A model generated the notes under the pieces. The model had not been told where the DNA came from. It made no database searches and saw only the letters and a program-made list of their open reading frames with translations. A DNA stretch of 62,569 nucleotides, taken from NCBI GenBank assembly GCA_947453625.1, contig CANGHK010000031.1, forward strand, positions 1 through 62,569, read 5' to 3'. The translations under genes were made by a program, and so were the position numbers. The stretch is from Burkholderiales bacterium. Its GTDB lineage: Bacteria; Pseudomonadota; Gammaproteobacteria; Burkholderiales; Burkholderiaceae_C. How positions within the stretch are numbered: the first letter of the stretch is position 1; each line of letters starts with the position of its first letter. This document shows, one piece after another, positions 184-18,664 of the stretch.

Positions 184-205
184 GTGCCGCCGCCTCCGGC
201 GGCAC
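184..205 (-). terminator. Hairpin downstream of rpoD, possible terminator
   Basis: A perfect 9-bp stem (GTGCCGCCG / CGGCGGCAC) with a 4-nt loop lies about 30 bases past the rpoD stop. A second short stem (GACCGC / GCGGTC) overlaps the stop codon itself. No T-tract follows on the minus strand, so intrinsic termination is uncertain. I see no convincing gene in positions 1-236. Confidence 0.4.
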
Positions 206-236
206 GTATCTGGCCGACCTGAGACCGCTAACGCGG

Positions 237-2459
<2,223 letters not shown>

Positions 2460-2530
2460 GCGTCTCCTTGCGCGGACGAACGGCCGTCTCCCGCGCAAGA
2501 CGCCTGGGCCGGCTCTGCTGCGGTCGCTCT

Positions 2531-2556
2531 TGCCGATCAAATCGGCAAAAATTATA
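2531..2556 (-). promoter_or_regulatory. Putative rpoD promoter -10 with adjacent palindrome
   Basis: On the minus strand a perfect TATAAT (2551-2556) lies about 90 bases upstream of the rpoD start. It is followed immediately by an inverted repeat TGCCGAT-TTG-ATCGGCA (2531-2547). The -35 is not recognisable. The palindrome would fall at or just after the start site, where an operator or 5' hairpin could act. This supports rpoD being transcribed separately from the sco/mof genes. Confidence 0.4.
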
Positions 2557-2609
2557 ACTTTGGACACCGCTGCCTACTGCCTGTCGCGTTTCGGGTTGCC
2601 CATGGCAAA

Positions 2610-2642
2610 GGCCGGATCGACTTCATCAAAGTCGATCCGGCC
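2610..2642 (-). terminator. Strong hairpin between sco and rpoD
   Basis: A perfect 14-bp stem (GGCCGGATCGACTT / AAGTCGATCCGGCC) with a 5-nt loop begins 38 bases after the sco stop. Only a short T-run (CCTTTG) follows on the minus strand. It is a good candidate for the 3' end of the mof/sco transcription unit, insulating rpoD, and could act in both directions. Confidence 0.6.
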
Positions 2643-2680
2643 CACCCCGCGCCCAGCCTGCTCCAGTGAGCGCAGCGGCT

Positions 2681-3328
2681 TCAGCGCGACGCTACCGTTG
2701 TCTTGAGTTGTCGGATCAGGTCATCCGGCCTGGCCAGGCCGTCGATGCGCACCCAGGACTGTCCCGACCCCTGGCGCAGGAAGGTTAGCGGCTCATGGTT
2801 CATCTTGTCGCCGCGGTAGACGCCAAAGGCTTTTTGCGCGGCGATGCTGGCGCCCGCCGTGCCGGTGTAGAACTGCCATTGCGGGCCGGCCTGAAAGCGC
2901 TTGGCGTACTCGGCCAGCCGCACCGGGGTGTCGTACTCGGGGTCTATCGAGATCGACACCATGCGCAGCTTGGCGCTGTCGGTGCCCAGGCGGCCTTGCA
3001 CCTCGTAGAAAACCTGGCTCATCACCGGGCAGATCGCCGTGCAGGTGGTGAAGATGAAGTTCAGCAGCAGCGGCCGCGGATCGGCCAGTTCGGTGGCCAG
3101 GTCCACACTGCGGCCATCGGCGCGCAGCAGTGGGATGGCCGGCAGCTTGACCTCGACCTGGCGCGTCGTGGTCGTCGTCGCCGCCTTGCCCACTTCGGCA
3201 TGGTGGTGGTGGTGGGCATGTGGGTCGGGCGCGTCGGCGGCTTGCGCGGCTGGCAGCGCCAGGCAGGCCAGGACGGCCAGGGCGACCGGCAGGGCAAGTA
3301 TCTTGAAAGTCAGATAGGCTGGTTTCAT
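2681..3328 (-). CDS. Sco1/SenC-type copper chaperone
   Basis: Thioredoxin-fold protein of the Sco1/SenC family, which delivers copper to cuproenzymes (classically the CuA site of cytochrome oxidase) on the outer face of the inner membrane. The 215-aa product starts with a signal peptide or anchor (residues 1-30), then a His-rich stretch (DPHAHHHHH) that could bind metal. The Cu-binding CxxxC motif is CTAIC (C96, C100) and a distal histidine lies in NHEPLTF (H178), as the family requires. The ATG at 3328 is preferred because a clear signal peptide begins there; the 66 residues upstream look non-coding. It lies last in the minus-strand run of mof-associated genes, 194 bases after the PEP-CTERM gene, so it may supply copper to the multicopper oxidase encoded in the same run (inference). 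Confidence 0.9.
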   Translation of the reverse strand: MKPAYLTFKILALPVALAVLACLALPAAQAADAPDPHAHHHHHAEVGKAATTTTTRQVEVKLPAIPLLRADGRSVDLATELADPRPLLLNFIFTTCTAICPVMSQVFYEVQGRLGTDSAKLRMVSISIDPEYDTPVRLAEYAKRFQAGPQWQFYTGTAGASIAAQKAFGVYRGDKMNHEPLTFLRQGSGQSWVRIDGLARPDDLIRQLKTTVASR

Positions 3329-3522
3329 GGGCTGCCCTGATGGCGCGGTTTGATTGCGCGGTTTGAATGCGGCCGGTGGCGTCTGCTGAAGCCTGCATCG
3401 ATCGCTGGCACGCAGTCTGAGTCGGCGTGATTTAGCGAAGCTTAAGAAACCAGCCCAACCCGCGGCGGACCGGGTCCAAATCCGGCCTGCAGCGCACGCC
3501 ATCGGCGTTGCCGTGCCGAAGT

Positions 3523-4104
3523 TCACGCCTTGCGGGTGTCACGGCGGCGCCTGAGCGCGAGCAGCATGGCCAGGCCGATGCCCATCAGCGGCCAGGTTGC
3601 GAGTTCGGGCACCGGGCTGGCCAGCGGCACTTCGTTGAAGGTCAGGTTGTCCATCACGAAGCGCTGCTTTGCGTTGTTCAGGACCACCACCTGGTCAACC
3701 GCGCCGTCGTAGCCGCTGGCCACGAAGGTCGGCACGGTGCCGACCTGAAACGCGTCCGAGGTGTGGACCACGGCGCCGCCGAGCTTCAGCTGGTAGCTAA
3801 GTTGCTCGGTGGCATAGCCGGTGAACGCGGCGCCCTGGAACGTGAAGGCGTTGGCGCTGGAGATCTCGTTGCCGTCGCCGAGGTTGGTCAACAAGCGGGT
3901 TTCACCCGAGAACGGGGCGTAAGGCTGGTTGCCCTGGTCGGTGCTGTAGTACTCCCAACCGAACCAGTCCAGGCCGCCGAAGCTGGCGGGCATGGCCGTC
4001 GGACCACCCTTGAGGGTGTCGAAATTCAGCACGGTGGCCGAAGCCATCGGCAGGGTCAGGGTCAGCGCAACGGCGGCAGCAAGGCAGGCAAGGGGGTGTC
4101 GCAT
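3523..4104 (-). CDS. PEP-CTERM-like secreted protein, paralogue of the neighbouring FN3 protein's N-domain
   Basis: 193-aa exported protein of unknown function. Residues 1-23 are a signal peptide ending ASA. The mature domain starts VLNFDTLKG and contains GGLDWFGW, TRLLT and FVASGYDGAVDQVVV. The C-terminus (PVPELATWPLMGIG, a hydrophobic helix, then RRRRDTRK) is a PEP-CTERM sorting signal in which the usual PEP is PEL. Such signals are processed by exosortase in bacteria that make exopolysaccharide. The same N-terminal domain occurs at the start of the next gene upstream (4159-6918), so the two are duplicated paralogues. A good ribosome site (TGGAGAT) precedes the start. Its position 54 bases after the FN3 gene suggests co-transcription. 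Confidence 0.8.
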   Translation of the reverse strand: MRHPLACLAAAVALTLTLPMASATVLNFDTLKGGPTAMPASFGGLDWFGWEYYSTDQGNQPYAPFSGETRLLTNLGDGNEISSANAFTFQGAAFTGYATEQLSYQLKLGGAVVHTSDAFQVGTVPTFVASGYDGAVDQVVVLNNAKQRFVMDNLTFNEVPLASPVPELATWPLMGIGLAMLLALRRRRDTRKA

Positions 4105-4158
4105 GAGGATCTCCAGTGGGTAGGTTTCGGATCACGTTCGGGGAAAGATTGGCACGGA

Positions 4159-6918
4159 TCAAGGTGTGGCGGTCACGGTCGATGAGATGCTGGCAGCCGG
4201 CGCCGACGCCGCCGGGAACAGCGCGTTCACCGTCACCACCCGCCAGGCATAGGTGGTGCCGGTGCTGAGCCCCTTGTCGCTGAAGCTCAGTGCCGTGCCG
4301 CCGGTGGTGGTGCTCTGGGCGCTGGTGCGCGACACCGTCGTGACGGTGCTGAAACTGCTGGTCTTGCCGGCGCTCACCACGGCGCGCTGGAGTGCGAAGC
4401 CGGTCTCGTTGTTCGAGGCATCGATCCACTGGACCGTCACCGAGCTCGACGAAGCCCGCTTGGCAGTGACGCCGGAAGCTGCGGCTGGGCCGGGAATCGC
4501 CGCCACCGAAACGGTGTTGGACGCCGCCGAGGCGCCCCCGGCGTTGCTGGCCGTCACCCGGTACTGGTAGGCGCTGGCGGCCAGGGCAGTAGCGTCGCTG
4601 TAGCTGAAGGCGGTGCCGGTGCTGCTGGTCTGGGCAGCAGTGGGCGTCACGCTGCCGAGCGCTGCCCAGGTGGCGCCGGCGTCCGCGCTGCGTTGCACGG
4701 CAAAGCCGGTCTCGGTGGTCGAGGCGTCGTTCCAGCTCAGCACCACGGTGGCCGAGGTCGAGCGGGCGGCGGCAGCCAGCCCGGTTGGCGCGGCGGGCAC
4801 GGCCACCTGCGGCGTGGCCAGCACCGCGGCCGAGATCGCGGAGGCCGGTGCGCTGGTCACGGGGAACAGCCCATTGGCTGCCACCACGCGCCAGGCGTAG
4901 GCCTGACCGCTGGTCAGCGCGGCGGCACTGAAACTCAGCGCCGTGCCGCCCGTGCCCGTGGTCTGGCTGCCACTGCGGACCACCGTCGAGACGGTGGAAA
5001 AACTGCCGACCACGCCGCCCGTCACCGTCGCTTGCTGCACCACAAAACTGGTCTCGTCTATCGAGGCGTCGGTCCAGACCAGTGTCACGCCGGTGGCTGA
5101 AGCCACCGTGGCGGCGACGCCGGTGGGGGCTGTCGGCGCCGGGACCGCCGACACCGCCACCGTGTTCGACGGCGCCGAGGCGCCGCCGGCATTGCTGGCG
5201 GTCACCCGGTACTGGTAGGCGCTGCCTGGCAGGGCGGTGGTGTCGCTGAAGCTCACCGCCGTGCCGCCAGTGGCAGCAGTCTGCGCGGCGCTGCGGGTCA
5301 GGCTGCCGACCGCCGTCCAGGTGACGCCGGCGTCGGCGCTGCGTTGCACGTTGAAGCCGGTCTCGCTGGTCGAGGCGTCGGTCCAGCTCAGCACCACGGT
5401 GGCCGAGGTCGAGCGGGCGGCGGCGGCCAGGCCGGTCGGCGCGGCAGGCAGAGCTCCCGTCGCCGTGGCCTGCACGATCACCGACGTGGCGGTGGCCGCC
5501 TGTGCGAAAACGGCATTGGCCGCCACCACCCGCCAGGCGTAGGTCTGGCCGGCGCTCAGTCCCGACGCGACATGGCTCAAGGCCGCGCCGCCGGTGGCCG
5601 TGGTTTGCGCCGCCGTTCGGGCATAGGTGGCGACGGTGGCGAAGCCGCCCACCACGCCGCCGGTCACCGGGGCCTGCTGCACGACGAAGCTGGTCTCGTC
5701 GGTCGAGGCGTCGACCCAGCTGACGGTGACCGTTCCCGAGGTGGCGGCCACCGCGCTGAGGCCGGTCGGTGCGGCGGGGCCGGGCATCGCCGGCAGCAGC
5801 AGCGTGTTCGAGGCCGCCGAACTGCCACCGTCGTTGTTGGCCAGCACCTGGTACCAGGATGCCGTGCCGGCCGGCGCCGTGCTGTCGCTGTAGCTTGCCA
5901 CCGTGCCGGTGGACAGGGCCTGCGCCGGCGTGCGGATCACGCTGGCCACCATGTTCCAGCTCAGGCCACCATCGGCGCTGCGGTTGATCGTGAAGCTGGT
6001 CTCGCTGTCCGATTTGTCGGTCCAACTCAGCAGCGCGGTGGCCGAGCTGCTGCGCGCTGCGGCCGCCAATCCGCCGGGCGCGGCGGGCAGCGCCACGGTG
6101 GGCGTGGCCTGCACCACCAGCGAGGTGCTGGCGGGCGAGGCCGACTTGATCGGGAACGCCGCATTCGCGGTCACCACTCGCCAGGCATAGGTCTGGCCCG
6201 TGACCAGGGCGGTGACGGTGCTGGTCAGGGTCGCGCCATAGGCGGCGCTCTCGGCGGCGTTGCGGCTGACCGTGGCGATCGCCGAATACGGGCCGACGAT
6301 GCCGTTGCTCACCGGCGCCTGTTGCAGCACGAAGCTGGTTTCGTCCAATGAGTTGTCGACCCAGCTCAGCGTCACGCTGGTGGGCGATGCCACCGTGGCG
6401 GTGACCCAGGCCGCTGCCTGCGGGGCCGCCGCGCCAGTGCTGGGCTCGCTGTAGCTGAAGTCGTCCAGCACGAAGTAGTTCGGGATGTCGCTGACCACCA
6501 CCACTGAGTCGACCGTACCGTAATAGCCACTGGCCAGGAAGGTGGGCGACGCCGACGGACTGAACACCGCCGAGGTCGATACCAGCACGCCGTTGAACCA
6601 CATCTCGTAGTGCACCATGGCCTCGGCAAAGCCCGAGATGTAGGCGCCCTCGAAGACAAATGGCGTGCGGCGCGAGACCGCGTTGACGTTGCTGGAGGTG
6701 GTCAGCCGGGTGTCGGGCGATGCCGGGTTGTAGGGCATGCCAGCCTGCTGGTAGTCGTAGTGCACCCAGCCCAGCCAGTCGAAGCCGCCATGGGCGCTAC
6801 CCGCCATGTCGGCCGTGCCGGCCAGGTTGTCGAAGTTCAACACCGTGGACGCCGAGGCCGCGGTGGCCGACCAGGCCAGGCAAGCCACCAACGCAAGACG
6901 GGAAAAGGGCAGGGACAT
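4159..6918 (-). CDS. Secreted protein with seven fibronectin type III repeats
   Basis: 919-aa exported protein. After a signal peptide (residues 1-23, ending ASAS) comes a ~140-residue domain clearly paralogous to the adjacent PEP-CTERM protein (VLNFDNLAG, GGFDWLGW, TRLTT, FLASGYYGTVDSVVV, FVLDDFSY). Seven FN3 domains follow in strict alternation. Type A has SWVDASTDETSFVVQQAPV and YAWRVVAANA; type B has LSWTDASTSETGFNVQRSAD and YQYRVTASNAGG. The order is A-B-A-B-A-B-A. The chain ends shortly after the last repeat, without a PEP-CTERM or other visible anchor. The start at 6918 is chosen for the signal peptide; the frame is open to 6984. FN3 arrays commonly mediate carbohydrate or protein contacts in extracellular enzymes. 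A role in the extracellular matrix around MofA is inference. Confidence 0.85.
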   Translation of the reverse strand: MSLPFSRLALVACLAWSATAASASTVLNFDNLAGTADMAGSAHGGFDWLGWVHYDYQQAGMPYNPASPDTRLTTSSNVNAVSRRTPFVFEGAYISGFAEAMVHYEMWFNGVLVSTSAVFSPSASPTFLASGYYGTVDSVVVVSDIPNYFVLDDFSYSEPSTGAAAPQAAAWVTATVASPTSVTLSWVDNSLDETSFVLQQAPVSNGIVGPYSAIATVSRNAAESAAYGATLTSTVTALVTGQTYAWRVVTANAAFPIKSASPASTSLVVQATPTVALPAAPGGLAAAARSSSATALLSWTDKSDSETSFTINRSADGGLSWNMVASVIRTPAQALSTGTVASYSDSTAPAGTASWYQVLANNDGGSSAASNTLLLPAMPGPAAPTGLSAVAATSGTVTVSWVDASTDETSFVVQQAPVTGGVVGGFATVATYARTAAQTTATGGAALSHVASGLSAGQTYAWRVVAANAVFAQAATATSVIVQATATGALPAAPTGLAAAARSTSATVVLSWTDASTSETGFNVQRSADAGVTWTAVGSLTRSAAQTAATGGTAVSFSDTTALPGSAYQYRVTASNAGGASAPSNTVAVSAVPAPTAPTGVAATVASATGVTLVWTDASIDETSFVVQQATVTGGVVGSFSTVSTVVRSGSQTTGTGGTALSFSAAALTSGQAYAWRVVAANGLFPVTSAPASAISAAVLATPQVAVPAAPTGLAAAARSTSATVVLSWNDASTTETGFAVQRSADAGATWAALGSVTPTAAQTSSTGTAFSYSDATALAASAYQYRVTASNAGGASAASNTVSVAAIPGPAAASGVTAKRASSSSVTVQWIDASNNETGFALQRAVVSAGKTSSFSTVTTVSRTSAQSTTTGGTALSFSDKGLSTGTTYAWRVVTVNALFPAASAPAASISSTVTATP

Positions 6919-7011
6919 GGCGGATCCGATGGGCAACCGTTGGCGCAAGTGAGGGACAAGGCAGCGCCTGACCGGGGCAGACAAGCCCGGGCATCGAAGT
7001 CAGGCGGGGTG

Positions 7012-7041
7012 CCGTTCATAGGCCCGCGGGCCGGTGAACGG
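7012..7041 (-). other. Nested inverted repeat between psiF-like and FN3 genes
   Basis: CCGTTCA (7012-7018) and TGAACGG (7035-7041) flank the perfect palindrome GGCCCGCGGGCC (7021-7032), giving a two-part hairpin in a 173-base intergenic gap. No T-tract follows. It may be a processing or attenuation element within the mof-linked operon. Confidence 0.45.
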
Positions 7042-7091
7042 CGATCGGCAGTGGTGGATCGGCAGGCCGGCCGCAGAGGGCCGGCGCCGCG

Positions 7092-7367
7092 TCAGTGGCT
7101 GGCCATGCAACTGGCCAGGAACTGTTGGCGCTCGACCTGCTGCAGGTCCTGATCGGCGGCCTTCTTCTGGCACGCCGACATCAGCGCGCCGCGGGCCTTG
7201 GCCGCGACCAGCTGCGCCTTGGCGTTGACGGCGTCGTGCTGCACCTCGGCGGCCGAGGCCGGTGCCGAGGCAGGCTTGGCGGCCGGTGCGGCGACCGGTT
7301 TGGGGGCAGTGGCCAGGGCACCGAACGACAGGGCCAGGCAGGACAACAGGAGGATGGGCTTGATCAT
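7092..7367 (-). CDS. Small exported PsiF-repeat-like protein
   Basis: 91-aa protein with a signal peptide (residues 1-20, ending ALA) and an Ala/Pro/Lys linker. The C-terminal segment has two conserved cysteines (LMSACQKKAADQDLQQ ... RQQFLASCMASH) that fits the PsiF repeat, a short periplasmic motif named after a phosphate-starvation-inducible E. coli protein of unknown function. It starts 48 bases after the mofC stop on the same strand, so it is probably the fourth gene of the mof operon. The PsiF assignment rests on pattern recognition of the Cys spacing. Confidence 0.7.
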   Translation of the reverse strand: MIKPILLLSCLALSFGALATAPKPVAAPAAKPASAPASAAEVQHDAVNAKAQLVAAKARGALMSACQKKAADQDLQQVERQQFLASCMASH

Positions 7368-7415
7368 GATGGTCTCTTCAGGGTTGGGTGCGGCCGGGGC
7401 CGACGGAGGCGGGTT

Positions 7416-9437
7416 TCAGGGAATGATCCAGCCCGACGCAGCCTTCAGCCTGAGGCTGTCGGCGTCGTCGTGGCGGACGATGTAGGCGCCCTTGCTGGCC
7501 TGGCGCTGGAACTGGCCCAGGCTCAGCCGCGGGTAGGCGCTGGTGCTCAGCGGCGCGCCGCTGGAGACCGAGGTGGCGGTGGCGTCTTCGTCGATCACCG
7601 CGGCAGGGGTCTGCGCGGTGGCGTTGGCGGCGCGTGGCACGGCGCGCGGCAGCATCGGGCGGCTGGCCATCACGCGCAAGGGTTGGGTCTGGGTCTGGGC
7701 GCGCTGGGCGCGCGGCAGCGCCAGGTCGCGGGCCTCGTCCTCGGCGCGGGCGGCCTCGCGCAGGCTGAGCATGCTCTCGCCGCGCTCGATCAGGTAGTCA
7801 CGGTGCAGGTTGTCGAGCATGTCGACCAGCGTGTCGTTGAGGTAGTTCAGCGCGAAGTACACCTCGGACTGCAGCAGCTCGTCTTCCAGTGGCAGGCCGC
7901 GGATGCGCAGCCACTCCTTGAACACTGTCAGGCCGCGCTGGCGCAGCTCGGGCAGTTGGTAGGGGTAGATCAGTTGGGCCCGGGCGCGCCAGGCGGCCGG
8001 CAGCGGCAGTTGGTCGCCGCCGCCCAGCGCGGCCGAGAAATAGATCGACGCCTTGGGCAATGCCAGGCCGTCCAGCGCTTTCAACTGTGCTGGCGTGAGC
8101 CAGAACACCACGCTGTCGGCGGCGCCCAGCGCCTGCAGTTGGCGCGCCAGCGGCGCGGTGTCGGCGCCCAGCCGGTGCTCGGCGGCCGGCGTGGCCGAAT
8201 CGGCCAGGCGCTCGCGCAGCGTGGCCACCGCGGTCTCGGCCACGCCGGCATCGGCGTAGACCTGCAGCACGCGGCCCGGCTTGCCCGACGGTGTGGCTGA
8301 CGGGGTGGCGGACGCTGCGCTGTTCTGCAGGTGCTGGGCCAGCACTTCGGCCTCCATCGACAAGCCGCCCGAGAAATACAGGCTGTAGAACAGTTTGTCG
8401 CTGTCGCGCGGCACCGCGGCCACGCTCGGGAACCAGCAGGGCAGGGCCTGCGCCTCGCAGAACTGCTGCACCGGCGCCCATTGACCCGCACCCAGGCCCG
8501 AGGCCACCGCGAACACCGGTTGCGCGGCCTGCCAGCGGTCGAGCTGGGCGCGCCAGGTGGCGGGCGGGCCCTGCAGCATCCACACCTGCATATCCCAGCT
8601 GCGGTCGGTGCGCAGCACCATCTCGGCGCCGCTCGACATCGTGCGCTGGCCGCCGTGGATGATGTTGCCGTTCTTCTGCGCCACCACGCCCTGCAGCGTG
8701 GCCAGGAAGATGCGCTGGCGCTCGGGGTCGACGTCGGGCGTGATGATGGTGGCCAGGCGCACGGTCTTGTCGGTCACGCCGGGCGACCAGGCGTTGGACA
8801 GGTGGCGCAGGTAGCTGGCCAGCGCGCGCACCTCGCCGTCGTCCAGCGTGTAGCGCGGCATCAGCGGGTCGAGCGCACGGCCGCTCTCGTGCACGCCCTC
8901 GCGCAGCGCCTGGGCCAGCGTGGCCAGCGAATAGGGATCGTGGCGCTGGTTGAAGCTCTTGCGGGTGCGCAGGTTCATGTTGACCACCGCGCGGCGGTCC
9001 TGGTCGAACAGGTAGCGCCCGCTGATAGGCGCCACCTGGCTGGTGCCCTCCACCGCGCCCAGGCCGCTGCGCCGGTGGCATAACGCGCAGGCCGCGCCGG
9101 CCCCGCTGATGGTCACCTGGCCGTCCAGCCGGGTGCCCGTCAGCGGCTGGCCGTTGGCGCGCTGGCCGTCGCGGTAGAGGCGGACACCCTGGGCGATCAG
9201 CGTCGGGTCGTCCGACAGTCCAGGGGTCGGCGCTGCGGTGCCGGCCGACGCCTCGTCGCGCCAGGCGCGTTCCGAGATGCGTTGCCGCTCCAGCCGGTTC
9301 AGCGCGTTGGCTGTCTGGGTCGGGGCCGTCGCCTCGGGTGCCATCGCCACCGACTGCGCAGCGACGAAGGCGCTCGGCAGCCAGGCCGTGGCCAGGGCCA
9401 GCACAGTGCAGCGAATGACGTGGAGAGGGCGTGACAT
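7416..9437 (-). CDS. mofC: MofC-like protein: monohaem cytochrome c fused to a type-1 periplasmic-binding-like domain
   Basis: 673-aa exported protein. A signal peptide occupies residues 1-28. A single haem c site CALCH lies at 117-121, with a likely axial methionine in [19 protein letters not shown] (M193), so residues ~80-215 form a class I cytochrome c. The next ~330 residues ([56 protein letters not shown]) resemble type-1 periplasmic binding proteins of the Leu/Ile/Val family. A low-complexity Ala/Arg/Thr tail follows. In Leptothrix discophora the gene called mofC, downstream of mofA and mofB, encodes a haem-binding protein, and gene order and content match here. Electron transfer from MofA is plausible but unproven. 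The start at 9437 is chosen for its signal peptide; an upstream in-frame start at 9497 would overlap mofB. Confidence 0.85.
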
Positions 9438-9480
9438 CGCGGTTCGCTCGCTGACGGGCTGGATGGCTGTTGGGCTGGAC

Positions 9481-10242
9481 TTACTGAACGACGGCAACCA
9501 GCTCGACGTTGAACACCAGCGTCTCGTTGGGGCCGATGTTGCCGCTGCCGCGGGTGGCGTAGGCCAGGTTCGGCGGCACGACGACCTCCCAGGCGGCGCC
9601 GGCGGGCATGCGCTTGAGCGCCTCGCGCAAGCCGGTGATGGTCTCGGTCAGCTTCATCGTCACCGTCTTGCCCTCGGGCGTGGCGTCGAACTCGGTGCCG
9701 TCTATCAGCTTGCCCTGGTAGCGCACGACCACCGTGCTCAGGTCGGTCGGCTTGTCGCCCTTGGCGTCCTTGATCACGCGCACCATCAGGCCGCCGGGCA
9801 GCGCGGTCACGTCGGGCTGCTTGCGGAAGTCGGCCTGGAAGATCAAGCCGTTCTCGCGGTTGATGCTGGCCTTGACCGAGCGCTCGCTGGCCATCTTGCG
9901 CTGGATATCGGCCTGCATCGACTGCAGCACGATCTTCAGTTCCTTCTCGTCGATGCGGATCGCGCCGCCCGTGATGCCGTCGCGCAGGCCCTGCACCAGC
10001 AGTTCGGCATCGAAGGCCACGCCGTTCTTGGCCAGCGTGCGGGCCGTCATCACGCCGGTGGAGTAGCTCATCTTGTCCTTGAGCGTGGCCAGCGGCGCGC
10101 CGCCCGCCGTCTTCTCGGCGGCGGCTGCGGCGGGCGCTGCGGCGACAGCCGTGCCCTGGGCCGAGGCGGGTGCTGCGAACGCGGCCATCAGGGCCAGCGT
10201 CAGCGCGGTGACGGATGCAGACAGTGAACGATGGGCAGACAT
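9481..10242 (-). CDS. mofB: MofB-like FKBP-type peptidyl-prolyl cis-trans isomerase
   Basis: 253-aa exported prolyl isomerase of the FkpA/Mip type. A signal peptide (ending ASA) is followed by an Ala-rich linker, an FKBP N-terminal dimerisation domain ([33 protein letters not shown]), a long helix and the FKBP catalytic domain ([43 protein letters not shown]). A GGAAGCC ribosome site precedes the ATG at 10242. It lies directly downstream of mofA, matching the Leptothrix mofA-mofB order, and probably helps fold the very large, proline- and valine-rich MofA in the periplasm (inference). Confidence 0.92.
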
Positions 10243-10291
10243 GGTGAGGCTTCCAATGGTGAGAAATCGGTGCGGCTGGGCCGCGTGGGGC

Positions 10292-10313
10292 CAGGCCTGC
10301 TTCGGCAGGCCTG
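10292..10313 (-). other. Intercistronic stem-loop between mofA and mofB
   Basis: A perfect 9-bp stem CAGGCCTGC / GCAGGCCTG closes a 4-nt loop in the 243-base mofA-mofB gap. The gap also holds a wider inverted repeat CTTTCACG (10347-10354) / CGTGAAAG (10379-10386) and the 14-bp palindrome GCGGTGGCCACCGC (10411-10424). No T-tract follows, so partial termination, RNA processing or 3'-end stabilisation of the mofA segment is more likely than full termination. Confidence 0.5.
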
Positions 10314-10485
10314 TCGGTCTGGGTTTGGCGAACTGAGGAGGAGAGGCTTTCACGTCTTCACCCGCTGCCGGGCACAGGCGTGAAAGGCGGTGGCTGCGGC
10401 CCGTTGCCGCGCGGTGGCCACCGCACCCGTCCTTGGGGGCCGCCCCGGAACCCGCGTGCAGCGGGCCCCGGAGCGGCGTGCCGGC

Positions 10486-13400
10486 TTACTTGGTGAAGCT
10501 CATCACCGTGCTGGCGGCGACCACGTTGCCGGCACCGGCGGTGCCGCTGACGGCCAGCACCTGGTAGTTGTAGGTCCGCAGCGTCGGCGTGGTCAGCGCC
10601 ACGCCCGTCAACGACAAGGTGCGCGTCGTCGAGGTCGTGGTGCCCACCGAGGCGTAATTGCAGACCCCGCTCGTCACCAGGCACTGCATCACCCGGTACG
10701 AGCCCACCGTGACACCGGTCGGTGCGTTCCAGCTCAGCGCCACGGTGGTCCGGGTGGCCGTGGTGCTGCTCAAGACCGGCGTGCCGCCGTTGAAGGTCAC
10801 CGCCACCGCCGCAGCCGTCACCGTCGCCGACGCCGTTTGCGCGCCGGCGGCATTGACCGCCACCACCTGGTAGTCGTAGCCGGTCGAGGTGACGGCCGTG
10901 GCGTCGGTGTAGGTCCTGACGTTGGCCGCCAGCGTGGCAACCGTCGCCCAGACGCTGGTGCCCGTCACCTTGCGCTGCACCAGGTAGTTGGTCTCGTTGG
11001 TGGCGTTATCGGTCCAGCCGATGGTGATGCCGCCGGTGCCGACGCGGGTGGCCGTCAGGCCGGTGGCTGCCAGCGGAGGTGCCGCCACCACCGCCGTTGC
11101 CGATGTCGACTCACCGGCCGAGCCCACCGCCACCACCCGGTAGCTGTAGTCGGTGGTGGCCGATGCGGTGGCGTCGCTGTAGACGGTGGCATTGGCCAGC
11201 GCGGTGCCCAGCTTGGTCCAGGTCGTCGTGCCCGCCGTCTGGCGTTCCACCCGGTACTGGTACTCGGTGGTGGCGTTGTCGACCCAGCTCAGGTTGACGT
11301 TGCTGCCGTTGCGGGCTGCGGCCACGGCGGTAGCTGCTGCCGGCACGCCGTCGTTGGCGTGGAAGATGATCGGCCGCATGAAGTCGTTCTCTTCGTGGCC
11401 CAGGATGTGGCAGTGCCAGACATATTCCCAACCGAAGTCCTGGATGGTGTTGGCCATCGGTGCCGGCAGGCCGGTGTTGGGGTCGATCTGGGTGAAGCCG
11501 GTCATCGCGCCTTCAGGCTGGCTCGGGTCGAGCCGGCGCACGCTGTTGGGCAGGCCGAATCCCGGCAGCTTGGGCTTCTTGGCCCGCACCGCGACGATGG
11601 CGTCCTCCAGCGGGCTGACCATGATGGTCTCCTTCCAGCCCAGTTCGTTCGGCTCCGGCGGCGTCACGAAGTTGTCCCAGCCCACCCGGTTGATCAACTG
11701 CACATTGACCAGGTGGAAGTGGATCGGGTGGGTGTCCACGCCGTTGTGGGTGATCTTCCAGATCTGGGTCTCGCCGTCGGAGATCTCCTCGGTCGGCTTG
11801 TCGACGTAGCCCAACGGGATGGTGGTCTGCGTCAACGCGCTGGTGTAGGGAATCTCGATGCCGAAGGTCGCGTTCAGGCGGCCATAGGTCGGGTCGAACA
11901 GCTCCTGTATCGCCTTGGTCTTGACCAGGATGTTGCCCTGTGCCGTGCCGCCGTTGGCGGTGTCGGGCGCTGCGGCCGCCGCCACCTTGGCGATGTTGAG
12001 CGGCGTGTAGTTGGTCGACGTCGACCCGGTGTTGCTCGAGTACACCGGCTCCCTGGACGAGTTGGTGAACGTCACTGTCGGCGCGCTGGTGTAGCCCTTG
12101 CCCGAGTTGGTCAGCGTGACGTCGAACACCTTGCCGATGGCCGCCGCCGTGGCGGTGACGCCGCCGGCGTTGGTCGGCGGGTCGATGCGGATCGTCAGGC
12201 CGGGGGTCAGGTTGTTCGGCTCGGACGCCGCGGTGCTCAAGTCATCCCAGCCGCCGCCGCCCGCCGAATTCGGGTTCTGCGGGTCAGGAATGACCAGATT
12301 CAGCGCATCGATGCTGCCGCTGCTGGTCAGCACCGCACCGCCCGCGCCGGCCACCATCACGCTCGGTGCCACGCTGTAGCCGCCGCCCGGGTTGGTGATG
12401 GTCACGCCGGTGATGGCGCCGGTGGCGCTGACCTGGGCCACGCCGGTGGTGGTGTTGAAGGCCGACACGCCGTTGACCAGGGTCATGGCCTGCGGCTGCG
12501 CGAAGGTCACCGTCGGCATCGCGGCGACCGCCGTGGTGGCGCTGGCGGCCGTGGCTACCGTGCCGCCGACGAAGGTCGGCACCGGGGCCGAGGCATAGCC
12601 CCGGCCGCCGTTGGTGATCGTCAGGCCGGTGACCACACCCGTGGTGCTGTTGAACACCACGGTGGCGGCGGCCGCGGTGCCGCCGGCCGGCGCGGCGAAG
12701 GTGACGGTCGGGGCGACACGGGCCAGCGTCACCGCCGAGGCGGTGGCGTTGACCTTGGCGGTGGTGCCCGAGGCCGACGCGGCGTCGATCGTGATGGCCG
12801 GGGCCGTGGTGTAACCGCTTCCGGGGTTGGTGATCGTGATGCTGTTGATCTTGCGGCTGGTGCCGGTACCGGTCATGGCCGCGGTGGCGGTGGCCTGCAC
12901 ACCCCCTGCCGCTGGCGCGGCGATGGTGACCTTGGGCGTCTGGGTCGCCAGCGGATAGCGGTTGGTGGTGTTGATCGTAATCGCGCTGACGCCCGGCGTG
13001 TAGCTGCCTCCGCTGGTCACGGTGGCGCTGGTGACGCCGCCGGTGCTATAGCCCGAGCCGCCCTTGACCACCTGCACCGCGCCGACATTCAGCGACGAGG
13101 TGGCCGTGGCACCGCTGCCGGTCCCCAGCGAGGTGATGGTGACGATAGGCGCCACCTTGTAGCCCGAGCCGGCGTTGACCACCAGCAACTTGTCGATCTT
13201 CATCGAGGCCACGGCGCTGGCGCCGGTGCCGCCGCCGCCGGTCAGGGTGACGGCGGGGATGCGGGTGTAGCCCGTGCCCTCGGCGCTCATCAGGATCGAG
13301 TTGAACGACGCGCTGGGCGTGCCCGGCACGAAGTTGAAGGTCGGCATCTTGATCGAGCCGTTGAAGATGCTGGCGAAGGCCTTGTTGTCGGTCCAGTTGG

Positions 13401-15777
13401 TGCCGAGCGCGGCGTTGTAGGCCGACTGCGCCACCACCGGGGTCTCCTGCGTCGCCTTGTAGGCGGCCTTGACCTTGGTGTCGAGGTTGGCCGGGTCGAA
13501 CGCGGCCACCGGCGTGCTGGTGGCCGCGGCCACCTTGATCTGCATCAGCGTGCGGGTGTTCGGGCCGTAACCGGCGCGGGTGTCCTCCGAGCCGCCGGTG
13601 GCCGAGTTGTCGCCGTAGCCGGTGAAGTACTCGTTGCGCGGGTCGGCGGCGGGCACCGGGGCGCCCGAGTCGTTGTAGACCAGCAGGGTCTTGCCGGCAT
13701 AGGCCGAGAAGTCGACCACCACGTCGGCGCGCTGGGCGTTGCCCAAGGTCAGGCCCGAGGCACCCCAGTCGACGTTGAGCACCGCGGCGCGGCCCTTGTC
13801 GAGCAGGAAGTTGGTGGGCGTCGGGTCCTTGATCGCCACGCCGGGCAGCAGACCGCCTTCGTTGGCGATCTGGTGCATGCGCGGGCCTTGCGTGGTGGCG
13901 TCGGGCACGCCGCCGTTGTGGCCGTAGACGTCGGTCGACCAGGTGGCCGGCGTGCAGACGCCGTCGGTGCGGGTGGCGGCCGGGTCGGCACAGGCGGTGG
14001 CGCCCCAGGAGTTGACCGGCACCATCTTGACTTCGGTGTTGGTGCGGCCGTCGTCAGTGACGACGCTGTCGTCGGCGACGAACAGGTTGAGCGAGATCGC
14101 CCGGTCATTGGCGGCGTTGAGGATGCGCAGGCGGTAGGGCTTGGGCTCGACCGTCAGTGTGGGGTAGGCCACGCCGTTGACCAGCGGGGTGTCGTTCCAG
14201 GCTTCGGGCGTGGTGGTCACGTCGCCGTAGCCGCCCGACGGCAGGTTGTACAGCGACGGAAACGACGGCCAGAACCACGGGCCCCAGTGCCAGCGGCCGA
14301 CTGAGTTGAAGTTGGTGGCCTGGTTCGGGTCTTGCACCGTCTCGTAGACATGCGGGAACCACATGTCGCCGGGGGCGCCCCAGGCGGTGGTGTTCCAGCG
14401 CGCGTCCTGGAAGGCGATGTCGTCGGGGACGAAGGTCTTGTCCTGCAGGATCAGCGGGATGGTGGCGTCGGCACCCGGCAGCGTGCCGTCGGCGATCAGC
14501 GCCTGCTCGGTGGCGTCGGTCAGCATGTAGGCCGACAGCAGGCCGGCGTAGGCGTTCAGGCGGGTGACGCCCACGGTGTGGTCGTGGTACCACTCCATCC
14601 GGGCCGACTGGCCGTTCGGGTAGTAGTAGGTCATCGCACCCGGGCCGGGGTCGTTCATGTCGGGCACGTTCAGCGCACCCGGGCCGCGCAGGAAGTCGCC
14701 CAGCACGCTGGGGGCGATCGATGCGTCAGCGGCCAGCGACAGCGGGTTGGTCGGGTCGGCTTCGCCGCGCGGGGTGATCCAGGTGTGCGGGCCGCCATCG
14801 CTGATCCACGGCGTGTCGCCGCCGTGCAGGTGGATGTTGGTGCGGTTCTGGGTGTAGGTGGTCAGACCGTCCGGGCCGAAGCCGGCGCCGGTGATCGACG
14901 GGTCGACGGGCAGGAACAGGTCGCCGTTGCGCTTGACCACGTTGACCGAGCCGTCGGCGGCGATGCTGGTCTCGGCGCGGCCGGTGGGCAGCAGGTTGTG
15001 GAACTTGACCCGGGTCGGGGTGTCCTTGGTCGCGTTGATGAACGGGCCCAGGAAATGCGGGTTGTCGAAGGCCTTGGCCTGCACCAGCGCGCCGGTGAGC
15101 TTGCCGTTGGCATCGGTGCCGGCGATCATGATCGCGCTGCCGTCGGGGTAGCTCAGGGCCACGGCCTTGCTGCCCGGCAGCGCGGTGCGGCCGTTACTGG
15201 CCTGGTGGTCGATCTGCACGTAGCCGCGCAGCGTGGTGGCCTTGACCAGGTCGGTGTGCAGGCGGTCCTGGTACTCGACCGCGGCGATCTCGTAGTAGTC
15301 GTCACCGGTGGTCACGCCCTGCGGGTTGACCCACTTGCTGACCTTGGCCACCGGGATGTACTTCTGCGTCACGCCGTCGGCCATGGTCTTGGCGTTGGCC
15401 TCGCCCACCAGCGGCAGCGGGTCGACGAACTTGCGCAGCGCCTTGCCGGTGCCGGGGTAGCCGTTGGGGTAGAACTGCTTGACCTTCGCGTCGTAGGCTT
15501 CACGGTTGGTCGGGTCGTAGCTGTCGGGCGCGAACATCGGCTTGCCGGCCGCGTCGAGCTTGGGCGTGCCGTCGGCGTTGAGGATCGGCGTCCATTGCCG
15601 TGCGCCGGCCGGGCTGCCGGCGAAGTAGCTCTGGATCACGAACGGCACGTTGTTCAGGTCGTAGGCGTCACCGAAGCCCGGTCCGGCCTGCACCATGGGC
15701 GCCAGCGCCGTGAGCGCCGCCAGCGTGACGATGGCGCGGGCGATCGGCCGGCGTTTGAAATCTGAAAACTTCTTCAT
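10486..15777 (-). CDS. mofA: MofA-type giant multicopper oxidase (putative Mn(II) oxidase)
   Basis: 1763-aa exported multicopper oxidase. A signal peptide (residues 1-32, ending VQA) precedes the oxidase. All four copper-ligand motifs are present: HLHGG (H316, H318), WYHDH (H398, H400), HPIHFH (H1350, H1353, H1355) and the T1/T3 motif HCHILGHEENDFM (1455-1467). Residues ~830-1240, between the second and third copper-motif pairs, carry an inserted array of at least seven GxGY-containing repeats (for example GSGYTTAPAITI, GGGYSVAPSVMV, GKGYTSAPTVTF). Three FN3-like domains follow the oxidase (about 1480-1763). Laccase-type oxidases are usually 450-700 aa; MofA of Leptothrix discophora, a putative Mn(II) oxidase, is also very large. 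The ATG at 15777 follows an AAAGG site; the 77 residues upstream look non-coding. The substrate is not proven by sequence. Confidence 0.92.
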   Translation of the reverse strand: MKKFSDFKRRPIARAIVTLAALTALAPMVQAGPGFGDAYDLNNVPFVIQSYFAGSPAGARQWTPILNADGTPKLDAAGKPMFAPDSYDPTNREAYDAKVKQFYPNGYPGTGKALRKFVDPLPLVGEANAKTMADGVTQKYIPVAKVSKWVNPQGVTTGDDYYEIAAVEYQDRLHTDLVKATTLRGYVQIDHQASNGRTALPGSKAVALSYPDGSAIMIAGTDANGKLTGALVQAKAFDNPHFLGPFINATKDTPTRVKFHNLLPTGRAETSIAADGSVNVVKRNGDLFLPVDPSITGAGFGPDGLTTYTQNRTNIHLHGGDTPWISDGGPHTWITPRGEADPTNPLSLAADASIAPSVLGDFLRGPGALNVPDMNDPGPGAMTYYYPNGQSARMEWYHDHTVGVTRLNAYAGLLSAYMLTDATEQALIADGTLPGADATIPLILQDKTFVPDDIAFQDARWNTTAWGAPGDMWFPHVYETVQDPNQATNFNSVGRWHWGPWFWPSFPSLYNLPSGGYGDVTTTPEAWNDTPLVNGVAYPTLTVEPKPYRLRILNAANDRAISLNLFVADDSVVTDDGRTNTEVKMVPVNSWGATACADPAATRTDGVCTPATWSTDVYGHNGGVPDATTQGPRMHQIANEGGLLPGVAIKDPTPTNFLLDKGRAAVLNVDWGASGLTLGNAQRADVVVDFSAYAGKTLLVYNDSGAPVPAADPRNEYFTGYGDNSATGGSEDTRAGYGPNTRTLMQIKVAAATSTPVAAFDPANLDTKVKAAYKATQETPVVAQSAYNAALGTNWTDNKAFASIFNGSIKMPTFNFVPGTPSASFNSILMSAEGTGYTRIPAVTLTGGGGTGASAVASMKIDKLLVVNAGSGYKVAPIVTITSLGTGSGATATSSLNVGAVQVVKGGSGYSTGGVTSATVTSGGSYTPGVSAITINTTNRYPLATQTPKVTIAAPAAGGVQATATAAMTGTGTSRKINSITITNPGSGYTTAPAITIDAASASGTTAKVNATASAVTLARVAPTVTFAAPAGGTAAAATVVFNSTTGVVTGLTITNGGRGYASAPVPTFVGGTVATAASATTAVAAMPTVTFAQPQAMTLVNGVSAFNTTTGVAQVSATGAITGVTITNPGGGYSVAPSVMVAGAGGAVLTSSGSIDALNLVIPDPQNPNSAGGGGWDDLSTAASEPNNLTPGLTIRIDPPTNAGGVTATAAAIGKVFDVTLTNSGKGYTSAPTVTFTNSSREPVYSSNTGSTSTNYTPLNIAKVAAAAAPDTANGGTAQGNILVKTKAIQELFDPTYGRLNATFGIEIPYTSALTQTTIPLGYVDKPTEEISDGETQIWKITHNGVDTHPIHFHLVNVQLINRVGWDNFVTPPEPNELGWKETIMVSPLEDAIVAVRAKKPKLPGFGLPNSVRRLDPSQPEGAMTGFTQIDPNTGLPAPMANTIQDFGWEYVWHCHILGHEENDFMRPIIFHANDGVPAAATAVAAARNGSNVNLSWVDNATTEYQYRVERQTAGTTTWTKLGTALANATVYSDATASATTDYSYRVVAVGSAGESTSATAVVAAPPLAATGLTATRVGTGGITIGWTDNATNETNYLVQRKVTGTSVWATVATLAANVRTYTDATAVTSTGYDYQVVAVNAAGAQTASATVTAAAVAVTFNGGTPVLSSTTATRTTVALSWNAPTGVTVGSYRVMQCLVTSGVCNYASVGTTTSTTRTLSLTGVALTTPTLRTYNYQVLAVSGTAGAGNVVAASTVMSFTK

Positions 15778-15899
15778 ATGAACCTTTTTAGGGTGGGCGG
15801 GACGGACTGTTGAGAGCGGAGGGAATCTGGCGCCTGCTGCAGGCTGCCCCGATCGGCAATGACACCGAAACTTGGGTGGTGACGACCGGCCTGGTGGGC

Positions 15900-15915
15900 G
15901 CAGTATGGATACTGC
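15900..15915 (-). promoter_or_regulatory. Operator-like palindrome in the mofA leader
   Basis: A perfect inverted repeat, GCAGTAT-GG-ATACTGC, lies about 16 bases downstream of the expected start site of the proposed mof promoter and about 123 bases before the mofA ATG. Its size and position suit a repressor site. The regulator is unknown. Confidence 0.45.
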
Positions 15916-15937
15916 TCCGGTATTGAATAGCGCCGGG

Positions 15938-15966
15938 AGTATCGACTGTGAGTTGACATAGGACAA
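15938..15966 (-). promoter_or_regulatory. Putative sigma-70 promoter of the mof operon
   Basis: On the minus strand TTGTCC (15961-15966) and GATACT (15938-15943) are separated by exactly 17 bases, each matching the sigma-70 consensus at 4 of 6 positions. Transcription would start near 15931, leaving a leader of about 150 bases before mofA. Confidence 0.4.
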
Positions 15967-16351
15967 TGGCGTCCAGTCCCGCATTTGCGGTGGGGTCTGC
16001 CCCCGCATCTGGGGTGGGTATGACTACCCGGTATCTTGAATACCAGTGGGCCGCCATCGAGACCCGTGGTGGACTCCCGGTCAGTCTCTGGCGGGCTGCC
16101 GGAGGCGGCCTGTCGAGGCCGCGCCTCACGGAGCAAGGACCGGCCTGCGGTGGTCGACTGCGGCGGGCCTGGAATGATGACGAATTGCGGCTGCGCAGTA
16201 AGGCAGGTTGCCCGCGGGTCGCGGCGGCTCTGGCAGGCACCTGTCTCCAATATCAAGACAAGTTCAAGAAGGTTTTGGCGCTGCGCGACGGCGTAGCGGA
16301 ATGGGTCTGAGAGTGGCGCCGAAGGTTTCGCACTGGGCATGCGGCCAGTAT

Positions 16352-16372
16352 TCGAATTCAATATGAATTCGA
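16352..16372. promoter_or_regulatory. AT-rich 21-bp palindrome, operator-like
   Basis: Arms TCGAATTCA and TGAATTCGA flank a 3-base centre, a perfect dyad in otherwise GC-rich DNA. It is roughly 575 bases upstream of mofA and 295 bases past dnaG. It fits a helix-turn-helix dimer site, but no gene starts close by. Confidence 0.45.
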
Positions 16373-16376
16373 CCTT

Positions 16377-16398
16377 AAAAAACCACCTGCCCTGGGTG
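16377..16398 (-). terminator. Weak candidate terminator downstream of dnaG
   Basis: On the minus strand a 4-bp stem CACC / GGTG with a 7-nt loop is followed one base later by six T residues (16377-16382). The stem is short. A larger C/G stem (CCCCT / AGGGG) lies just upstream. If real, it would separate dnaG transcripts from the mof operon. Confidence 0.3.
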
Positions 16399-16666
16399 CT
16401 TCCTCCCCTTGTTCGAGGGGTGGTGAGAAATCGATGGGCACGGCTTGTCGTGAGTAAATAGACATTCAAGCCGGACGAAACCCGTCAGGCGGCTGGACGC
16501 CTTGCGAGCGCGGGCTGGCCGCGCAGGCTCAGCGCGGCGCGCTCGCCCTCAGGCGGCGACCTGCCGTGCTGGCGGCTCGCTGGCCTGGGTTGATAACCAT
16601 AAAGATGAGCGTCCGAAAGAGAGGCGGTCGGCGGCTTGGCGGCGCGCCGCGCCAGCGCTCAGCGCT

Positions 16667-18664
16667 TCAGTGACGGCCCGAAGGGACGGCGGCGTTCTTC
16701 AGCTCGGCCGTCAGGGCGAACAGCTCATTGCGGCGGGCGATCGCGGCGTCCGACAATTCGCCCGATTCGATCAACCAGTCCAGTTCGTCCTTGACGGCGA
16801 TCTGGCGCAGCCGGCGCAGCACCGACTCGACCAGCAACAACGGGGCCTCTTCGTCCTCGACCTCGTGGAAGCCGGCCAGCCGGTCGAGCAGCGGCGTCAG
16901 GCCGACCGGATCGGCCTCGGCCTCCTCGACGCCCTCGGCCGGTGCCCGGCGCAATTCGGCCAGCAGCGCAGCCATCGTGATCGCGCCATGCTCGTGCAGG
17001 ATGCGCTCGAGCGCGGCGAAGAACGGGCTGTAAGGCGCCGGCTGGGCGATCAGGAATCGATGCGATTCATCCGACAGCTCCAGCCAGACGCCGGCGTGGC
17101 GGGCCAGCAGCCAGGCCATGCGGTCGAGCAGGTTGGCGGCCTGCGGCGGCACGCGCCGGCCGGGCATCGGGTGCATGCGCAGTCGCCCGGCGCTGCCGTC
17201 GCCACGGCCGCCACCCTGGCCCTCGCCGCGGCGCCAGCGCGGGGCCGCTCGGTCGTTGCCCGGCAGGCCCATGTCCTCGGGGTCGTCACGCATGCCGACA
17301 TCGCCAGTTCCACCGCCACCCCCACCACCGGCCTCGGCGGCCGGGCGGGCCCGGCCGCTGGCGCGCCTGGCCCAATGCGCCTGCAGCACCTCGGCCGCCA
17401 TGCCGCCCAGCTTGGCCAACTCCTGCACCACTTGCTCGCGCAACAAACCCTCGGGCAGCAGGTCGACCAGCGGTCCGGCCTGCGTCAGCATGCGCGACCG
17501 GCCCTCGGCCGTGGCCAGGTCGCAGTCGGCGCCGGCCTGGGTGATGAGCTGGGCCGACAGCGGCACGGCCTGCGCGACCGCGCGCTCGAAGGCCTCGGGC
17601 CCGAGTTCGCGGATATACGAGTCGGGGTCGTGCTCGGCCGGCAGGAACAGGAAGCGGATGCTGCGCAGGTCACTGGCGTGCGGCAGCGCGGCCTCCAGCG
17701 CCCGGCCTGCGGCGCGCCGGCCGGCGGCGTCGCCGTCGAAGCTGAAGACCACCGATTCGGTGAAGCGGAACAGCTTGGCCATGTGCTCGGCGGTGCAGGC
17801 CGTGCCCAGCGTGGCCACCGCGTTGGGGTAGCCGCATTGCGCCAGCGCCACCACGTCCATATAGCCCTCGACCACCAGCGCATAGCCCTTGGCGCGCAGG
17901 CCTTGCCTGGCCTCGAACAGGCCGTACAGCTCCTGGCCCTTGTGGAAGACCGGGGTCTCGGGCGAGTTGAGGTACTTGGGCTCGCCGACGTCGAGCACCC
18001 GGCCGCCGAAGCCGATGACGTCGCCGCGTACCGAGCGGATCGGAAACATGATGCGGTCGCGGAAGCGGTCGTAGCGCTTCTGTTCCGCGCCATCCTCGCC
18101 GCTGACGATCACCAGGCCGGCTTCGGCCAGCAGCGGGTCGTCGTAGCGCGGAAACACGCTGGCCAGCGTGCGCCAGCCCTCGGGCGCATAGCCCATGCCG
18201 AATTGCGCCGCGATGGCGCCGGTCAGGCCGCGCTGCTTCAGGTAGGCCACCGCACGCGGGCTGGCCTTGAGCGCGGCGCGGTAATGCTCGCCGGCCTTGG
18301 CCAGCACCTCGCTGAGGGTGGCGCGCTGGGCTTTCTCGGCGTCGGCGCGGGCCCGGTCCTCGGGGCTGTCCTCGCGCTCGGGCACCTTGACGCCGACTTG
18401 CTGCGCCAGATCGCGCACCGCGTCCATGAAGCCCAGGCCATGGTGCTCGACCAGGAAGCGTATCGCGTCGCCATGCACGCCGCAGCCGAAGCAGTGGTAG
18501 GTCTGGCGCGACGGGCTGACGATGAAGCTGGGCGACTTCTCGCCGTGGAAGGGGCACAGGCCCTTGTGGTTGATGCCGGCCTTCTTCAGCTCGACATGGC
18601 GGCCCACCACCTCGACCACATCGACGCGGGACAGCAGATCCTGGATGAAACCTTGGGGCAGCAC
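16667..18664 (-). CDS. dnaG: DNA primase DnaG
   Basis: Replication primase that makes RNA primers on the lagging strand. The 665-aa product has the N-terminal zinc-binding domain (CPFHGEKSPSF ... YHCFGCGVHGDAIRF). The catalytic TOPRIM core follows, with VVEGYMDVVALAQCG and FSFDGDAAGRRAAG, then a Gly/Arg-rich linker (GGGGGGTGD ... RRGEGQGGGRGDG) and a C-terminal helicase-binding region. Length is typical for betaproteobacteria. It lacks its usual direct rpoD neighbour, and no rpsU or yqeY-like gene lies upstream. Confidence 0.97.
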   Translation of the reverse strand: MLPQGFIQDLLSRVDVVEVVGRHVELKKAGINHKGLCPFHGEKSPSFIVSPSRQTYHCFGCGVHGDAIRFLVEHHGLGFMDAVRDLAQQVGVKVPEREDSPEDRARADAEKAQRATLSEVLAKAGEHYRAALKASPRAVAYLKQRGLTGAIAAQFGMGYAPEGWRTLASVFPRYDDPLLAEAGLVIVSGEDGAEQKRYDRFRDRIMFPIRSVRGDVIGFGGRVLDVGEPKYLNSPETPVFHKGQELYGLFEARQGLRAKGYALVVEGYMDVVALAQCGYPNAVATLGTACTAEHMAKLFRFTESVVFSFDGDAAGRRAAGRALEAALPHASDLRSIRFLFLPAEHDPDSYIRELGPEAFERAVAQAVPLSAQLITQAGADCDLATAEGRSRMLTQAGPLVDLLPEGLLREQVVQELAKLGGMAAEVLQAHWARRASGRARPAAEAGGGGGGGTGDVGMRDDPEDMGLPGNDRAAPRWRRGEGQGGGRGDGSAGRLRMHPMPGRRVPPQAANLLDRMAWLLARHAGVWLELSDESHRFLIAQPAPYSPFFAALERILHEHGAITMAALLAELRRAPAEGVEEAEADPVGLTPLLDRLAGFHEVEDEEAPLLLVESVLRRLRQIAVKDELDWLIESGELSDAAIARRNELFALTAELKNAAVPSGRH

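Follow-up and report, generated by a model that had tools for sequence, protein, structure and literature searches.

A Leptothrix-type mof gene run between dnaG and rpoD of a Burkholderiales bacterium, and type II secretion genes linked to mofA in related loci

The mof run and its surroundings

The window analysed here, a stretch of 62,569 nucleotides of a Burkholderiales bacterium (assembly GCA_947453625.1, contig CANGHK010000031.1), carries at 2681-15777 a run of seven open genes, all on the minus strand, between dnaG and rpoD. Read along that strand the order is dnaG, mofA, mofB, mofC, a gene for a PsiF-like protein, a gene for an array of fibronectin type III (FN3) repeats, a gene for a PEP-CTERM protein, sco and rpoD, and the succession of mofA, mofB and mofC on one strand is that of a Leptothrix-type mof operon. 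We call this run mof1 (with its oxidase gene mofA1) and a second copy found in the same genome, on the contigs C85 and C51, mof2 (mofA2). The starts of mofB, mofC and sco were picked by eye inside longer open reading frames (ORFs), and the export signals of the window proteins were also assessed by eye, with no signal-peptide program. A domain shared by the FN3-array and PEP-CTERM proteins is referred to as domain X. The features of the run and its flanks are, in order of coordinates:

237..2567, minus strand: rpoD, downstream flank, outside the system; matches the rpoD adjoining dnaG in relatives
2610..2642, minus strand: strong hairpin between sco and rpoD, a possible end of the run, with no T run; limits read by hand from the fold
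2681..3328, minus strand: sco, SCO1/SenC copper chaperone; the ORF reaches 3526, the likely start being the internal ATG at 3328, by eye
3523..4104, minus strand: PEP-CTERM-type protein, with domain X, a C-terminal helix and an arginine run
3616..4038, minus strand: domain X of the PEP-CTERM protein, a predicted beta-sandwich like those of carbohydrate-binding modules
4159..6984, minus strand: FN3-array protein, with a signal, domain X and seven FN3 repeats by motif; likely start at the ATG at 6918
6430..6852, minus strand: domain X of the FN3-array protein
7092..7367, minus strand: gene for a small, exported PsiF-like protein that has a motif of two cysteines and is found repeatedly in mof loci
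7416..9437, minus strand: mofC, c-type cytochrome with a single CxxCH; the ORF reaches 9497, start by eye
9481..10242, minus strand: mofB, FKBP-type peptidyl-prolyl isomerase; the ORF reaches 10353, the likely start being the internal ATG at 10242, by eye
10486..15777, minus strand: mofA (mofA1), Leptothrix-type multicopper oxidase of 1763 amino acids with 2-3 C-terminal FN3 domains, from the ORF and family matches
16667..18664, minus strand: dnaG, upstream flank, outside the system

Family searches match MofA to Cu-oxidase_2 and fn3, MofB to FKBP_C and FKBP_N, and the FN3-array protein to fn3. The four copper motifs of multicopper oxidases are present in MofA (HLHG, HDH, HPIHFH and HCHILGHEENDFM), MofC scores 22.5 bits with Cytochrom_C (cut-off 21.3), and Sco, with 66.4 bits for SCO1-SenC, has both the CxxxC motif and the distal histidine of SCO proteins. 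The PsiF repeat of the PsiF-like protein reaches 14.6 bits, below the Pfam cut-off of 21; the two cysteines of this protein are invariant across seven aligned mof-linked proteins. The sorting signal of the PEP-CTERM protein scores 16.9 bits with TIGR02595 (cut-off 16) and 7.3 bits with Pfam PF07589 (cut-off 20.7), and the genome contains three exosortase matches over the cut-off. A preliminary description of this DNA had reported a seven-gene mof run, which is indeed open throughout, on one strand and in the place given; its gene names agree with the family searches except that the PsiF repeat falls under the Pfam threshold, which makes "PsiF-like" an apt term, and that the PEP-CTERM protein passes the NCBIfam model only.

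The gaps within the run measure 43 to 243 nt when the likely starts are used, and the 113-nt gap between sco and rpoD contains the hairpin listed above (z -4.55). Among relatives, dnaG and rpoD are neighbours in 22 of 29 loci, with rpoD no more than about 1.5 kb downstream, and genes other than rpoD come after dnaG in G001, G006, G008 and G013. The four relatives whose DnaG is most similar have, as judged by eye, hemH-, grpE- and dnaK-like genes after dnaG. The regions upstream of mofA1 and mofA2 have no common match longer than 12 nt. Tetranucleotide correlation with the rest of the window is 0.84-0.91 for the mof1 run, C85, C51 and the contig C74 discussed below, 0.84 for a fourth contig of the same genome and 0.74-0.89 for contigs of other genomes; as the ranges overlap, composition speaks neither for nor against contamination. 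We considered a plasmid origin and rejected it, no plasmid record matching mofA at E 1e-50. At 60926-61186, near the contig end, a short ORF resembles by eye the start of a phage-type integrase.

Core mof genes in other loci

Comparison of the best 80 of 504 mofA-homologue loci, several of which end early at contig ends, revealed the order mofA-mofB-mofC-sco-psiF within one stretch in five of them: a Rhizobacter metagenome-assembled genome (MAG; L026), Leptothrix discophora CCM 2812 (L027), Sphaerotilus mobilis (L028), Rubrivivax A210 (L029) and a Rubrivivax MAG (L031). Genes for Sco and the PsiF-like protein are a normal part of mof loci, including those of L. discophora and A210, and the view of the preliminary description that known mof loci consist of mofA-mofB-mofC only is outdated: the five-gene operon of A210 has already been published (PMC8218464; here and below, statements on articles cited by PMC number refer to the available parts of their text), and mofC-like and SCO genes are known to adjoin ompB/mofA homologues (PMC5566968). 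The window run shares with the operon of L. discophora and Rubrivivax sp. A210 the order mofA, mofB, mofC and the presence of sco and the PsiF-like gene downstream (PMC8218464). It differs in that psiF precedes sco, with the FN3-array and PEP-CTERM genes between them, and in its position between dnaG and rpoD. A tandem pair of mofB-like genes is found at 15046-16449 of L036, a Methylotenera mof locus.

Type II secretion genes linked to mofA

Neighbour clustering and a directed search of the 80 loci identified type II secretion genes less than 10 kb from mofA in eight loci (L023, L024, L025, L029, L031, L036, L038 and L088). They lie directly upstream of mofA in the first six and downstream, after sco, in L038 and L088; in L088 a GspG-like ORF begins 4 nt past the sco ORF, in L036 secretion genes flank the mof run on both sides, and in L023, whose contig begins there, only pseudopilins and a regulator are present. 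In L. discophora (L027, 19024-20883) and S. mobilis (L028, 18812-20704) a lone secretin faces the mof run, with no other secretion genes in the retrieved flank. The remaining 70 of the 80 loci have no GspF, GspE or GspD match at E 1e-4. Sorted by the axial residue of the MofA type 1 copper (Phe, Leu or Met) into F-, L- and M-type, 49 of the 80 loci are M-type, many of them from phyla that, to our knowledge, rarely or never have type II secretion systems. A fairer denominator is therefore the set of 25 F/L-type loci from Proteobacteria and Geomonas, whose flanks are in many cases cut by contig ends; eight of these are linked, or ten when the lone secretins are counted.

The linked sets comprise matches to T2SSF, T2SSE, PilN, Secretin (with N-terminal TPRs), N_methyl, GspG and a NarL-type regulator, and secretin, ATPase E, inner-membrane protein F, L/M/N-like proteins and pseudopilins are encoded together in A210 and on two contigs of the genome under study, C51 and C74. 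This genome, an assembly of 127 contigs, has eight T2SSE-family matches, five of them of GspE/PilB type (types sorted by score and length). The GspE of C74 is 82% and that of C51 69% identical to the mof-linked GspE of L024, and the three other GspE/PilB-type ATPases are 33-47% identical to the mof-type ones. The set of C51 is convergent with mof2. On C74 the order is OmpR-type regulator, kinase, secretion set and NarL-type regulator, after which the contig ends within about 130 nt, at the very point where L023, L029, L031 and L036 run on into mofA. We infer from this arrangement that mof1 was once joined to a secretion set of the C74 kind and now stands apart from it, between dnaG and rpoD.

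A type II related pathway is also reported to be needed for manganese oxidation in Pseudomonas putida GB-1, for which de Vrind in 2003 reportedly described a Gsp-related pathway for the Mn-oxidising factor. General secretory pathway genes are among those important for Mn oxidation in the same strain (PMC3056050). Another parallel concerns OmpB, a MofA homologue (PMC5566968) whose secretion in Geobacter needs the Pul type II system with OxpG (PMC3543383). Its cluster in Geobacter sulfurreducens (GSU1394-1398) encodes, besides this MofA homologue with its FN3 domain, a SCO1/SenC chaperone and a protein distantly homologous to MofC (PMC5566968); unlike the mof run, it is without mofB and is tied to metal-oxide reduction, not oxidation. 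A literature search by listed descriptions, with most subscription papers not covered, found no published mof-linked secretion set or mof-linked PEP-CTERM protein. By word search, secretion is unmentioned in the available text of PMC8218464, PMC11412304 and PMC13386937, and that of PMC5566968 mentions it once, citing the OmpB work.

A second mof copy in the same genome

MofA2 is 72% identical to MofA1 over query positions 17-1525. Its gene starts on C85 and leaves that contig after 2713 residues, and an end of C51 carries an 887-residue FN3 stretch followed by mofB2, mofC2 (69% identical), sco2 and psiF2; C85 and C51 probably hold the two ends of one mofA2 gene. By motif, MofA2 seems to have at least 18 FN3 repeats (10 on L022/C85 1-8140 and 8 on L166/C51 5174-7837), against 2-3 in MofA1. 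A Leptothrix-type mofA was found in none of 20 other genomes of the genus, two of which give weak matches. Divergent from mofA2, at 8428-13350 of L022 (C85), lie genes that by eye encode an outer membrane protein resembling TolC, a protein resembling HlyD and a giant repeat protein that leaves the contig and may be an adhesin secreted by a type I system.

The FN3-array and PEP-CTERM proteins

Domain X comprises 141 residues, with 39% identity between the FN3-array and PEP-CTERM proteins (phmmer 2e-33). It occurs twice in the genome, both times in the window run, so that mof2 is without a domain X gene. We scanned 99 relatives for domain X and for MofA, and 17 genomes behind the 80 mofA-homologue loci for domain X: it is present in four of the former, none of which has any MofA match, and in two of the latter (G100 and G115; genome completeness unstated). 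The FN3/PEP-CTERM pair is rare. On contig C193 of G100, the genome to which L023 belongs, the end of mofC is followed by sco, a PsiF-like gene, a PEP-CTERM gene with domain X (63% identical to that of the window), an OmpR-type regulator and a PAS kinase; the mofC end and the L023 contig overlap by 300 nt at 97%, and no FN3-array gene is found at this C193 locus. In G115, the genome of L058, a contig starts with the end of an FN3-array gene, followed by a domain X PEP-CTERM gene, with a kinase/regulator pair like that of G100 on the opposite strand. As to the co-occurrence of these genes with mofA, offered as a check by the preliminary description, domain X lies beside mof genes in one of the two genomes and beside an FN3 gene in the other. 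Pairs of a PAS-type sensor kinase with an OmpR-type regulator are found repeatedly (L182 10625-13303, L171 1276-4623, L172 1305-4609 and L026 7184-9444), next to mof genes, to secretion genes of the mof type or to the FN3/PEP-CTERM pair.

The model of the PEP-CTERM protein (mean predicted local distance difference test score 75) consists of a beta-sandwich and a C-terminal helix, and matches three solved structures at E 0.001 or better. Among the matches listed, 27 of 50 are titled carbohydrate-binding modules (template modelling (TM) score by query 0.29-0.48) and the rest include other jelly-roll folds. With PEP-CTERM/exosortase proteins such as PepA of Aquincola, which acts in floc formation (PMC9850573), the window protein shares the presence of exosortase genes in the genome and a possible C-terminal sorting signal, which scores weakly here. 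The seven repeats of the FN3 array alternate between two types, and the best outside matches of each type are the MofA tails of L024/L025 or the array of G115, ahead of the MofA tail of the window itself, which suggests that the array may be a MofA-type tail turned into a separate gene.

In an alternative reading, mofA, mofB, mofC, psiF and sco form one functional unit, to which the FN3 and PEP-CTERM genes do not belong; these would be passengers, two matrix genes of general use that happened to insert here. The four domain X PEP-CTERM proteins in relatives without a mofA match, the 15 of 17 other mofA-bearing genomes searched (completeness unstated) in which the domain was not found, and the confinement of both copies to the window rather than mof2 all fit it; they have to be set against the G100 gene placed after mofC-sco-psiF, the junction of FN3-array end and PEP-CTERM gene in G115, and array repeats matched best by MofA tails from the mofA1 clade and by the array of G115. 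We consider the passenger origin possible, if somewhat improbable.

The copper site of MofA and its substrate

Among 81 MofA-like proteins whose type 1 copper motif is readable, 28 have Phe as the axial residue, 4 have Leu and 49 have Met. Phe is found in MofA1, in MofA2 and in 21 of the 25 loci from Proteobacteria and Geomonas; in laccases this residue goes with high potential. In a quick tree of 79 rows (L058 and L056 removed by hand, L073 left out for lacking the motif), mofA1 falls in a supported set of 13 rows that includes the Leptothrix and A210 MofA; a group of mofA1, L023, L024 and L025 that leaves out mofA2 has a Shimodaira-Hasegawa-like approximate likelihood ratio test (SH-aLRT) value of 88, below the starred level. 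The axial Phe was also considered as a marker of mofC and discarded: the retrieved flanks contain mofC in 21 of 31 F/L-type loci and in none of the 49 M-type ones (own mof2 omitted, L073 unreadable), and this tree needs only two changes of axial residue, so that the association has no statistical weight.

As to what MofA oxidises, the axial Phe, given its link to high potential in laccases, speaks for manganese over iron, a phenolic or another organic compound, and the best NCBIfam match of MofA, an o-aminophenol oxidase model at 90.8 bits against a cut-off of 950, points towards the latter group. Rubrivivax A210, with the same core genes, oxidises manganese, its enzyme itself being unproven (PMC8218464), and mofA is among the top expressed genes of Leptothrix ochracea from iron-rich mats, whose authors leave the metal open (PMC11412304). 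A substrate other than manganese is conceivable, though not the likelier outcome.

A candidate surface metal-oxidation system

We propose, with a probability of about 0.5, that the genes of the run supply the catalyst and the maturation factors for a surface metal-oxidation system of the MofA/OmpB kind, in which MofA is exported by a mof-type type II system and tied to the extracellular matrix. MofA would cross the inner membrane via Sec, be folded in the periplasm with the help of MofB and receive its copper through Sco. By analogy with OmpB, the folded oxidase may then be carried over the outer membrane by the mof-type type II secretion system from C74/C51. Outside, the FN3 tails of MofA, the FN3-array protein and the PEP-CTERM protein with its carbohydrate-binding-like domain could tie the oxidase to the matrix, and MofC would be a periplasmic electron carrier or redox sensor. 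Proteins leave through type II systems after they have folded in the periplasm, and such a route fits the presence of a foldase and a copper chaperone in one run. As of 2017, experiments had not settled whether MofA needs MofB and MofC (PMC5566968). The extracytoplasmic assembly suggested in the preliminary description, which overlooked mof2 and the secretion sets linked to mofA, survives as far as the single directional run and the plausible roles in folding (MofB), copper supply (Sco) and surface display are concerned; its matrix proteins are the weakly supported part.

Several observations weigh against this proposal. The window contains no secretion gene, the C74 and C51 sets lying on other contigs, and of the 25 F/L-type loci from Proteobacteria and Geomonas, 15 show none in the retrieved flank, five of them (L026, L034, L037, L040 and L068) with at least 9 kb on both sides. 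In L024 and L025, the loci with the ATPases most similar to that of C74, no NarL-type regulator was found between the pseudopilin genes and mofA. A promoter scan of window positions 1-19000 found no sigma-70-like promoter, and the same interval has five terminator-like sites against 9.7 expected from shuffles; with no promoter and few terminator-like sites, it is the gene spacing that argues for co-transcription from mofA to sco. On the matrix side, the PEP-CTERM signal is weak in Pfam (7.3 against 20.7 bits) and the fold match of domain X is low, as the TM scores by query given above indicate. Finally, the authors of the L. ochracea study regard a role of mofA in iron oxidation as an open possibility (PMC11412304).

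It is unlikely that the secretion genes adjoining mofA instead build a pilus-like appendage or export other exoproteins, their linkage being regulatory or historical: the secretin and ATPase do score clearly below the NCBIfam cut-offs of GspD/PilQ and GspE/PilB, and mof1 has no such set beside it in the window, but the GspG-like pseudopilin on C51 reaches 167.7 bits (cut-off 88.85) and the MofA homologue OmpB needs a type II system in Geobacter (PMC3543383).

On a wider scale, and tentatively, at rather less than even odds, the mof genes of Betaproteobacteria, the distinct type II set, the NarL-type regulator and the sensor kinase/OmpR-type pair may constitute one metal-oxidation system covering signal, maturation, export and matrix display. 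The genome studied here would hold two versions of it with paired oxidases and secretion sets, one of them with the FN3 tail of the oxidase split off as a matrix protein with a sugar-binding-like domain. The secretion-gene linkage, although it lies outside the window, is the most useful result, as it suggests how the oxidase gets outside. With a secretion set beside mofA in eight records, including Rubrivivax sp. A210 and Rhodoferax lacus IMCC26218, the route of MofA to the surface becomes testable genetically, and the linked set offers a genomic signature by which complete mof systems could be distinguished from stray multicopper oxidases in data from the environment.

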